Origin: a bacterium
GTDB taxonomy: Bacteria; RBG-13-66-14
Direction of reading: 5' to 3'
DNA: 11,638 bases
NCBI GenBank assembly: GCA_035528375.1
Contig: DATKYS010000012.1
Location: 1 to 11,638 of the forward strand
Under the pieces are notes generated by a model. The model was not told the DNA's origin, ran no database searches, and saw only the letters and a program-made list of their open reading frames with translations. The position numbers were made by a program, and so were the translations under genes. This document shows, in pieces, positions 1,658 through 10,044 of this stretch (position 1 is the stretch's first letter; each line of letters starts with the position of its first letter).

Positions 1658-1690
1658 GCCTTGGCTCATACCCGCTTTCCAAGGAGCGCC

Positions 1691-3778
1691 GTGCCCGAAG
1701 AGAAGGACCGTGGAATGACCATCCGGCTGGTCCTGGCCGTGGTGATATCCATCGTGGCGATGGTCGGCATCAACTTCATCATCGGACTGGGCTCGGACGA
1801 GGAGGGGAAGACCGAGAACACCACGGAAAAACCCGGTGAGACGGAAAAACCCGTGGAGACGCTGCAACCCGCCGCAGAGGAGGAGACGGTCGCCGTGGAG
1901 ACCGCGCCCGCGGAGAGCGTCGAAACCCCGGCCCCCGCAACGGCCGAGCCGCGCCTGACCCCCGACCAGGAGCGGCTGATCACCCTGGAGACGGACCTCA
2001 TCATTCTGCGCTTCTCCAACATCGGCGGCGCCCTGAAATCCGTCACCCTCAAGGAGCACAAGGACTACGACGGCTCGCAGCTCGTCCTTTTCAACAAGGC
2101 CCTGGGCGAGTACTACCCGGGCATGGTCTCCACCTCGGAGTTCGACGCCCTCACCGTCCACACGGCCAACCACGCCGCGGGCGAATATAAAATCGAGGGC
2201 GAGGAGCAGTTCACCGTCACCTACTCGGCCACGGTGGCGGGCATCCGGGTCGTGAAGAACTACACCTTCCGCGGAGACTCCTACCTCGGCCACTTCGACC
2301 TCACCGTGGACTACCCCACCCAGGACCACCGCTCCTTCAATCTCAACCTGGGCACCGGCCTGGACCGGCAGGGGGACATGCGGGAGCTGGTCCGCAGCCT
2401 GCTGGTAACCACCGGTGAGGTCGGGGGCGAGGAGTTCGAGGAGAGCCCCGGGGACAACGACCTCGAGGAGGCCTCGGGCCCCATCGCCTACATGGCCATC
2501 GCCGACCAGTACTTCGCCCTGGCGCTCAAGCCCACCGAGGCGCTCACCGGCGGCCGGGTGGCCCTCGAGCCGCTGCTCGACCCCCCGAAGATAGCCAACA
2601 CCGTCATCGAGGTGCGTACCGACGCGAGCGGCCGCTTCAAGGACCGCTTCCAGCTCTACATCGGGCCGAAGCAGTACGACACACTCCAGGCCCTCGGGAT
2701 GGGGGACGTGGCCGACTTCGGCTGGGACTTCCTCGCCCCAATCGCCATCGGCGCCCTCAAGCTCCTCAATTTCTTCGAGGGATTTCTGGGCAACTACGGC
2801 CTGGCGATTCTTCTCCTGTCCATCGCCCTCAAACTGGTGATGGTGCCGCTGACGAACAAGAGCTTCCGCTCCACCATAGCCATGCAGCGGCTCCAGCCGA
2901 AAATCGAGGCCATCAAGGAGAAGTACGCCAACGATCAGCAGCGGGCGAACCAGGAGATAATGGAGCTCTACAAGAAGCACAAGGTGTCGCCCCTGGGCGG
3001 CTGCCTTCCGCTTCTTCTGCAGATGCCGATATTCATCGCGCTCTTCGGGGCGCTCCGAAGCGCCGTGGAGCTCCGCGGCGCCGGCTTCCTCTGGATAGCC
3101 GACCTCACCCTGCCCGACTCCCTGTTCAACTTAGGCTTCACCATACCCCTCCTGGGCTGGTCAACCTTCAACCTCCTGCCCATCCTGATGACCGCCGCCA
3201 TGTGGTACCAGGGCAAGATGACCACCAGCTCGGGCGTCAAGCAGAAAGGTTTCACCAAGTACCTCCCCCTCATCTTCGGCGTTCTTTTCTACAACATGCC
3301 CTCGGGCCTGGTCGTGTACTGGATAACGAACACGGTGCTGACCATGGCGCAACAGTACTGGCTGCGCAAGGTGGACGAGGCCAAGGGCGTGAGCGAGCCG
3401 GAGCCCAGGGGGAAGGTGGTCAAGACCGTCCCCGCCTCGGAGCCCAAGGCCAAGCCGAAGCCGAAGCCGAAAAAGACGGAGGCCGCCTACGAGGTGCAGT
3501 GCGAAAAGTGCGGGCACAAGACGGACTGGAAAAAAACCCTGCGCCGCGAGTACAAAAAAGTCAACCTCCGCTCCGGGGGGAAGGGCGACGTGGACGGGGT
3601 TTACTGTCCCCGCTGCGGGGCGGCCCTCGCCCTGGCCGTGGACGACGACCCCGACTACTCCCTGGTGGCCGCCGACCCGGAGAGGCCGATCCCACCGAAG
3701 GAGGACCGGGACTGGGGGAAGTTCCTGCCCAAGCCGAAACCGGGCGAGGAGGGTTACAACAAGGTCAAGACCAAGTAG
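1691..3778 (+). CDS. yidC: Membrane protein insertase YidC with C-terminal zinc ribbon
   Basis: A 695-residue inner-membrane insertase that inserts and folds membrane proteins alone or with SecYEG. In order: a first membrane segment (about 11-32), an acidic Glu/Thr/Pro-rich linker (about 36-95), a periplasmic beta-rich P1 domain (about 95-340), then the conserved core with NYGLAILLLSIALKLVMVPL, the cytoplasmic loop LQPKIEAIKEKY, and PLGGCLPLLLQMPIF (434-447) followed by further membrane segments to about 550. Lys381 occupies the position of E. coli Arg366 in the hydrophilic groove. After the core come a basic repeat KAKPKPKPKK (586-595) and a tail with CxxC pairs at 604/607 and 639/642, a zinc-ribbon pattern not part of standard YidC. 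Start: GTG 1691 has AAGGAG 4 nt upstream. ATG 1715 (AAGGA 7 nt upstream) would remove only 8 residues and remains possible. It stands apart from the usual rpmH-rnpA-yidC cluster. Confidence 0.95.
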   Translation: MPEEKDRGMTIRLVLAVVISIVAMVGINFIIGLGSDEEGKTENTTEKPGETEKPVETLQPAAEEETVAVETAPAESVETPAPATAEPRLTPDQERLITLETDLIILRFSNIGGALKSVTLKEHKDYDGSQLVLFNKALGEYYPGMVSTSEFDALTVHTANHAAGEYKIEGEEQFTVTYSATVAGIRVVKNYTFRGDSYLGHFDLTVDYPTQDHRSFNLNLGTGLDRQGDMRELVRSLLVTTGEVGGEEFEESPGDNDLEEASGPIAYMAIADQYFALALKPTEALTGGRVALEPLLDPPKIANTVIEVRTDASGRFKDRFQLYIGPKQYDTLQALGMGDVADFGWDFLAPIAIGALKLLNFFEGFLGNYGLAILLLSIALKLVMVPLTNKSFRSTIAMQRLQPKIEAIKEKYANDQQRANQEIMELYKKHKVSPLGGCLPLLLQMPIFIALFGALRSAVELRGAGFLWIADLTLPDSLFNLGFTIPLLGWSTFNLLPILMTAAMWYQGKMTTSSGVKQKGFTKYLPLIFGVLFYNMPSGLVVYWITNTVLTMAQQYWLRKVDEAKGVSEPEPRGKVVKTVPASEPKAKPKPKPKKTEAAYEVQCEKCGHKTDWKKTLRREYKKVNLRSGGKGDVDGVYCPRCGAALALAVDDDPDYSLVAADPERPIPPKEDRDWGKFLPKPKPGEEGYNKVKTK

Positions 3779-8657: not shown

Positions 8658-9380
8658 CTAGCCGGAGCGGGTCGCCCGTGCGAGGAGAACGGTTCCGGCA
8701 ATCCCCAGGGCGAAAGCGATGGCGGCCCCCGGAACCCCGCCGATGGCCACGGTGGATAAAAGTACCAGGGCCGCCGTCCCCACCCCGAAGTAGAGGCGCA
8801 ATCGCCCGAGGCCGGTTCCCGTCGGCTTGGGCGGCGTTTCCATGTAAACCCGCTCGGCGACCGCCAGGGCCACGCCCCGTCGTCCGCCGGCCGCGTAGCG
8901 CAATCGGTGAATCGGCATGTGGACCAGCGCAGTATCGTACCCCCTCGCGCTCTCCAGCCCCCGTCGCGGCAGATGCGCCTCGGCCTGAGCCGGAGTGATG
9001 GAGGGTTCGACCAACCGGTAGGGCTCGGGGGGCGCGTAGTAGGGGACGAGCCTGCGCTGAGGCGGGGGGAGGTTCGCGTAAAAACGACCCGCCACGTCGG
9101 CGTACGCGACCCGCCAGAGCGGGTTGTCCTCCGCGGGGGTGAAGAGATAGCAGGGCGCCCATAGCGGCTCGTTCTTCTCGATGGTGCAGGGGATGCCCAT
9201 TCGGGCGAGCTTTTCCGCCAGGAGCTCAGCCGGATCCAGGGGTGCCAGCGGGTGGACCAGGTGAGCGATGGTGCGACCGTCCGGGGACACGAAATTCACC
9301 GAACCGCAGAAGGGGCACTTGACCCCCAGGCCGGATTCGGTGAGCGTCCCCTTGCAGTTGTAGCAGGCCGCATCGCCCAT
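8658..9380 (-). CDS. Zinc-ribbon membrane protein of unknown function
   Basis: A 240-residue protein I do not recognise. The N-terminus is a zinc ribbon: Cys6/Cys9 (CYNC) and Cys22/Cys25 (CPFC). The middle region (about 30-190) is soluble and rich in Pro and Tyr, with a WRVAYADVAGRFYANLPPP segment. The last 45 residues form two probable membrane helices (YFGVGTAALVLLSTVAIGG and AAIAFALGIAGTVLLA) ending in a basic tail, so the ribbon is probably cytoplasmic. The start at 9380 is preferred over ATG 9413 because GGTGA lies 5 nt upstream and a candidate -10 box overlaps 9413. The terminal helices and N-terminal ribbon suggest a membrane-tethered regulator or assembly factor, but that is speculation. 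It is followed by the OMP gene, which has its own promoter. Confidence 0.75.
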   Translation of the reverse strand: MGDAACYNCKGTLTESGLGVKCPFCGSVNFVSPDGRTIAHLVHPLAPLDPAELLAEKLARMGIPCTIEKNEPLWAPCYLFTPAEDNPLWRVAYADVAGRFYANLPPPQRRLVPYYAPPEPYRLVEPSITPAQAEAHLPRRGLESARGYDTALVHMPIHRLRYAAGGRRGVALAVAERVYMETPPKPTGTGLGRLRLYFGVGTAALVLLSTVAIGGVPGAAIAFALGIAGTVLLARATRSG

Positions 9381-9408
9381 GAAGCTCACCCAGCCGAAGT
9401 ACGCCTTT

Positions 9409-9438
9409 ATCATACAACGGCCGTTCGAGTCGAGTCCA
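9409..9438 (-). promoter_or_regulatory. Candidate promoter of the zinc-ribbon membrane protein
   Basis: On the minus strand TGGACT (9433-9438, 4/6), an 18-nt spacer and TATGAT (9409-9414, 5/6). It predicts a start near 9402, about 22 nt before ATG 9380, and excludes ATG 9413, which lies inside the -10. Confidence 0.5.
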
Positions 9439-9452
9439 GCCCGCCGGTCGCC

Positions 9453-9481
9453 TTGACCCGTGATTTGGATGGTCGTAAAAT
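9453..9481 (+). promoter_or_regulatory. sigma70-type promoter of the LOG-like/acylphosphatase pair
   Basis: TTGACC (9453-9458), a 17-nt spacer and TAAAAT (9476-9481), each matching 5 of 6 consensus positions. Transcription would start near 9488, about 53 nt before the GTG start. Its -35 is 14 bp from that of the opposing promoter. Confidence 0.75.
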
Positions 9482-9540
9482 CCAGACCGGTCCCGGGCGG
9501 GCTCGACCGTGTCCCGACCGACCCAACGAAAAGGAACGAT

Positions 9541-10044
9541 GTGGAAAGAAGGCTCCAGATCAGCATCATCGGCGGCGCAAGCTGCAGCGAATCCACGGCG
9601 GCCAAGGCGGAGGAGGTCGGTTTCTTGCTGGCCGAAGCGGGGGCGGTGCTGGTGTGCGGCGGCCGGACCGGCGTGATGGAGGCGGCCTGCCGCGGCGCAG
9701 CCAGGGCCGGGGGAACCTCCGTCGGCATCCTCTTGGGGTACGATGACGACGAGGCCAACCCCTACGTGGACATCCGGATACCCACCGGTCTGGGCGTGGC
9801 CCGGAACGCCATCGTCGTCGCCTCGGGCCGGGCGGTCATCGCCATAGACGGCTTCTACGGCACCCTTTCGGAAATCGCCCTGGCGCTGAAGATCGGCCGC
9901 CCCGTAGTCACCCTGGGAAGCTGGCTGCTGCCGCCGCCCCCCGCCGGGCGGAAGGCCGGGGACCCGCTCCACCACGCCCACTCGCCCCAGGAGGCGGTGG
10001 AGATGGCGCTCAGACTGGCGCGGCAATCCCCGGGGGTGACGTGA
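9541..10044 (+). CDS. TIGR00725/LOG-like Rossmann-fold protein with altered GG motif
   Basis: A 167-residue protein of the family often annotated as lysine-decarboxylase-like, related to LOG phosphoribohydrolases. It has the N-terminal nucleotide-binding strand QISIIGGASCSE (6-17), VCGGRTGVMEAACRGA (38-53), GLGVARNAIV (83-92), and GTLSEIALALKIGRPVV. The family's glycine motif (usually GGGxGTLSE) reads DGFYGTLSE at 103-111, so the first glycines are replaced. That may change or abolish nucleotide-ribose hydrolysis. Activity of TIGR00725 members is poorly known in any case. The start is GTG 9541 with AAAAGGA 5 nt upstream; the longer frame to 9460 begins inside the promoter and is rejected. The stop overlaps the acylphosphatase GTG by 4 bp, so the two are probably translationally coupled. 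Confidence 0.85.
   Translation: MERRLQISIIGGASCSESTAAKAEEVGFLLAEAGAVLVCGGRTGVMEAACRGAARAGGTSVGILLGYDDDEANPYVDIRIPTGLGVARNAIVVASGRAVIAIDGFYGTLSEIALALKIGRPVVTLGSWLLPPPPAGRKAGDPLHHAHSPQEAVEMALRLARQSPGVT

Follow-up and report, generated by a model that had tools for sequence, protein, structure and literature searches.

The window, by which we mean the whole stretch of DNA that was analysed (11,638 nucleotides, the whole of contig C12 in a 2.63 Mb genome of Candidatus Coatesbacteria assembled in 144 contigs), encodes an ordinary full-length YidC, an essential insertase of membrane proteins, which carries an unusual conserved cytoplasmic domain at its C-terminus. This zinc-ribbon-like tail is found to be a real, lineage-restricted domain addition and is neither the product of chance nor of misassembly. 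The features of the gene and its tail are as follows.

1681 to 1686, forward strand: AAGGAG, the likely ribosome-binding site of yidC, read directly.
1691 to 3778, forward strand, stop included: yidC, 695 amino acids with a GTG start, comprising the periplasmic domain and the insertase core.
3365 to 3487, forward strand: basic K/P-rich linker (residues 559-599), variable among relatives, net charge +6, pI 10.0.
3488 to 3640, forward strand: zinc-ribbon-like domain (residues 600-650), C604-x2-C607 ... C639-x2-C642, assigned from invariant cysteines, Ka/Ks and sub-threshold profile matches.
3641 to 3775, forward strand: conserved C-terminal extension (residues 651-695), DDDxxY...D.P..P...D.WG..L...Y.KVKTK.

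The GTG at 1691 is probably the true start of yidC, judging from the AAGGAG which ends four bases ahead of it and from the same start region aligned in the relatives. The insertase core was identified by 60KD_IMP (PF02096; E 7.6e-59, 198.8 bits against a cut-off of 35) and by TIGR03592 (208.9 bits against 84.3), and the periplasmic beta domain of Gram-negative YidC by YidC_periplas (PF14849; E 7.2e-21, 75.8 bits against 24). This is the only YidC in the genome. Lys381, which precedes PLT in the first core helix, is invariant in the alignment of relatives and may be the counterpart of the groove arginine of E. coli YidC, the conserved positive residue of the hydrophilic groove. The protein has five cysteines in all, one in the core (438) and four in the tail (604, 607, 639 and 642), and re-reading of the sequence gave the same coordinates and residue numbers for the two CxxC pairs as a preliminary description of this DNA.

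After the last membrane helix the variable linker leads to CEKC (604/607), then to CPRC (639/642) and finally to a tail end of about 45 residues. The ribbon is basic like the linker, with a net charge of +5. The end had earlier been called acidic and proline-rich; it is merely mildly acidic (net -2, pI 4.9), and its P-x-P is present and conserved. In the extension Asp651-653, Tyr656, Asp662, Pro666, Pro668, Asp672, Trp675, Gly676, Leu679, Tyr689 and Lys691 are invariant in the aligned relatives. Since W-G, P-x-P and the terminal K-V-K-T-K are also conserved, the conserved unit comprises about 95 residues and is bigger than a bare ribbon. The C-terminus of YidC lies in the cytoplasm, and topology and sequence together would place the tail domain on the cytoplasmic side.

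The tail was recovered from each of the seven genomes of the window's family (f1, G000-G006), which represent four genera. All four tail cysteines are invariant in these independent assemblies along with 32 further columns (36 in total), and the spacing within the four-cysteine region is nearly fixed. The tail is thus no misassembly or peculiarity of one contig, as it stands in seven assemblies, four of which have separate public records. The tail is in frame with the rest, as described earlier: the yidC frame is open through the end of the tail in six of the seven genomes, the window included, and the exception (G005) has an intact tail. In that genome (L007 / L041) stops break the front part of yidC, which is probably a matter of assembly or bin quality. 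Identity in the linker drops to 20-39% among the more distant members (G003-G006), where the ribbon retains 65-80% and the membrane core 72-83%. The Ka/Ks values of the ribbon (G001 0.13, G002 0.10, G003 0.25, G006 0.17 and G005 0.41) may be compared with those of the membrane core (G001 0.20, G002 0.14, G003 0.15 and G006 0.22; overall 0.14-0.24), the estimates on 35-51 codons being rough, with synonymous sites saturated for G004. Purifying selection acts on the ribbon about as strongly as on the membrane core, and the linker is left to drift; a constrained ribbon behind a variable linker is what one would expect of a folded domain held on a tether.

Outside the family the tail was not found. 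In the phylum sample of 14 genomes it is present in 7/7 members of the window's family and in 0/7 members of the sister families. A search of 386 genomes with an alignment profile located the domain nowhere beyond the family, neither on other YidC proteins nor on other proteins; the remaining matches (E 0.001-0.006) were apparently unrelated sequences on inspection. With the same profile neither a free-standing copy of the domain nor a donor turned up in the genome itself, and no match was obtained in genome contigs outside the family or in viral contigs. Further, the YidC core was found in 151 of 155 genomes (mostly one per family), and 110 out-of-family tails could be read to the stop; they extend a median of 12.5 and a maximum of 101 residues past the core model and hold no cysteine at all. 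With 16 further genomes the count of out-of-family tails with cysteines is 0/126, against 7/7 in the family. These figures agree with the earlier remark that no standard YidC with a zinc ribbon is known, and the open-access literature, to which our search was confined, yielded no description of one. The domain was apparently acquired once, at the root of the window's family.

The best reading of the domain is a zinc ribbon, as suggested by CxxC-x31-CPxCG and the strand pattern, from which both zinc binding and fold are predicted. The two conserved knuckles lie within the 20-40-residue spacing of zinc ribbons, with the cysteines kept in 7/7 members. In the profile search proposed in the preliminary description, generic zinc-ribbon models of Pfam and NCBIfam matched weakly and recurrently in every member, and none exceeded its cut-off. 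The best score, for PF14803, was 22.4 bits against a cut-off of 25.6, even with the isolated 58-residue core. Comparison by sequence with solved structures gave two matches at chance level (E 0.45 and 0.59), and no relatives of the conserved last 45 residues were found. An AlphaFold model of the tail from five aligned sequences (pLDDT 51; 54-67 in the core) places strands at residues 26-34, 40-47 and 54-59 with low confidence, in the order knuckle, long hairpin, knuckle and third strand. Foldseek and VIA-align found no convincing fold match for this model (best E 0.38; Z 3.7), and the weak rows, which include Yippee/CULT, zinc-ribbon subunits of RNA polymerase and ribosomal entries, tie with unrelated ones. 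The full-length YidC model, with a pLDDT of 38.8, was too poor for use. In G004 two consecutive exported proteins upstream of yidC (L091:1368-1862 and 2335-2835) carry N- and C-terminal CxxC pairs; they were read and are dissimilar to the tail.

The location of the gene was also compared. The sister families keep the classical arrangement around yidC: mnmE follows the gene in f2-f5, jag stands directly behind it in f3-f5, and rnpA/yidD-like frames lie ahead of it where these were read. In the window's family yidC lies outside the rnpA-yidD-yidC-jag-mnmE order and its neighbours vary between genera; in the window it follows a metallo-beta-lactamase-fold gene on the opposite strand and precedes four genes of a 2-oxoacid:ferredoxin oxidoreductase. 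Jag_N and R3H were detected in 0/7 genomes of the family, several of them near complete, against 6/7 in the sister families, and KH domains of KhpA/KhpB type in 0/7 against six clear and one weak of seven. It is possible that gain of the tail is linked to loss of Jag/KhpA, in what is a single lineage. SRP GTPases of Ffh/FtsY type are present in most of the window's family, and nearly all of its genomes have the SEC-C zinc motif of SecA type; therefore the tail does not appear to replace a missing SRP, for which it is an unlikely substitute, or a zinc motif moved from SecA.

A few other features were noticed. An open frame on the reverse strand of the window (8658-9758), with the middle part CYNCKGTLTESGLGVKCPFCG, contains a second stretch that resembles a zinc ribbon and, after it, a probable membrane segment; the frame has a counterpart in G003 (L093:605-1336). 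No Rfam match was obtained in the window. In the seven genomes G007-G013 of the four sister families f2-f5 (for example L235, L237 and L238) an Ffh/FtsY GTPase (PF00448, PF02881) was not clearly found, whereas all 14 control genomes and most of the window's family have such GTPases; G009 nevertheless has a good SRP RNA adjoining dnaX (L228, 72.6 bits). This may reflect either loss of SRP in a bacterial lineage or an artefact of search or assembly. In G007 (L087:8692-9357) RnpA and YidD domains share one open frame of 222 amino acids, a possible fusion or overlapping genes.

As the most likely role we tentatively propose, at somewhat short of even confidence, that the YidC tail docks ribosomes or nascent chains as a tethered module. 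The four-cysteine zinc ribbon and its conserved extension would sit on a flexible basic tether past the last membrane helix, inside the cell, and would hold ribosomes, or nascent chains bound to them, beside the insertase; the basic linker could provide a loose electrostatic contact and the folded ribbon a specific one. The proposal is drawn by analogy with the basic tails of YidC, Oxa1 and Alb3, which help to tether ribosomes (PMC8733628), and with the tail of SecA, a flexible linker and metal-binding domain which attaches to 70S ribosomes close to the tunnel exit (PMC6620043). Both parts of the YidC tail, the linker (+6) and the ribbon (+5), are basic, as in ribosome-binding YidC/Oxa1 tails (PMC8733628). 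Against docking, no feature of the sequence points to the ribosome rather than to a protein partner, the tail end is slightly acidic instead of basic, and an extra ribosome receptor is not obviously needed where the SRP GTPases are present.

The main rival to ribosome docking is recruitment of a lineage-specific protein partner such as a targeting factor, chaperone, quality-control or assembly factor, in the manner in which the Alb3 tail recruits cpSRP43 (PMC4660199). Restriction of the tail to one family fits a co-evolved partner, and the conserved D-x-W-G and Y-x-K-V-K-T-K outside the ribbon resemble a protein interface; however, no partner gene is linked to yidC, whose neighbours differ among the genera of the family, and we regard this explanation as rather unlikely, if worth serious attention. 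The pattern of Jag and KH domains given above (Jag_N/R3H 0/7 against 6/7; KhpA/B-type KH 0/7 against six clear and one weak of seven), together with jag placed directly after yidC in f3-f5 and with yidC-jag co-transcription, taken as a functional hint (PMC6403258), would suit an RNA-binding ribbon which took over the role of Jag/KhpB-KhpA, proteins that disappeared as yidC moved out of the jag operon. But this is an event in a single lineage, so that the co-occurrence amounts to one data point, G007 (f2) lacks Jag and yet has no tail, and the tail has no RNA-binding signature besides its basic charge; such a replacement seems improbable to us.

Cytoplasmic four-cysteine sites can react to redox or metal, and the tail might in that case act as a zinc- or redox-responsive switch tuning the activity of the insertase. 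The many conserved residues other than cysteine, and a spacing that hardly varies, fit a structural zinc site instead, and a switch is considered highly improbable. The idea that chance cysteines, misassembly or a gene-end artefact account for the tail could draw on the gene of G005, broken upstream of it, but is refuted by the purifying selection and by the same tail in seven assemblies, four genera and four separate public records. A more far-reaching reading, for which we see little probability, is that these proteins form a new class of insertase, in which a zinc-ribbon domain gained once has replaced the yidC-jag/KhpA-KhpB partnership and would couple insertion directly to recognition of the ribosome or RNA through a metal-folded module.

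YidC is almost universal, and lineages vary the meeting of insertase and ribosome at few sites, among them the C-tail. A conserved tail restricted to one lineage is a natural experiment, and it offers a small, soluble and expressible module for testing to what extent docking by the tail on its own steers co-translational insertion. It coincides, moreover, with the loss of Jag/KhpA, RNA-binding proteins which often accompany yidC. With it this lineage may dock ribosomes or a partner in a manner of its own.

In comparison with known systems, classical zinc ribbons (Zn_ribbon_3 PF13248, Zn_ribbon_Nudix PF14803 and TFIIS/TFS-like) have the succession of CxxC knuckle, long hairpin, CPxCG knuckle and strand that is predicted for the YidC tail, whereas the YidC-tail matches to them are sub-threshold and mostly cover one knuckle, and its conserved extension is foreign to those families. 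The SecA C-terminal tail (SEC-C, PF02810) is, as predicted for the YidC tail, a small metal-binding domain after a flexible linker on a component of the Sec pathway. It is, however, a motif of about 19 positions with another cysteine spacing, against CxxC-x31-CxxC in the YidC tail, and no sequence relation was found; PF02810 is absent from the families matched by the tail, and in this genome SEC-C occurs at a single site, on another contig. Extended basic C-tails of YidC have been described in Rhodopirellula baltica and Oceanicaulis alexandrii (Seitl et al. 2014, cited in PMC8733628). These proteins have the same long cytoplasmic C-extension with a basic stretch on an unchanged core. The R. 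baltica and O. alexandrii tails are reportedly basic and partly able to replace the SRP receptor, and are not known to carry a zinc ribbon. In contrast, the Coatesbacteria family keeps its SRP GTPases and adds to YidC a four-cysteine domain of predicted fold.
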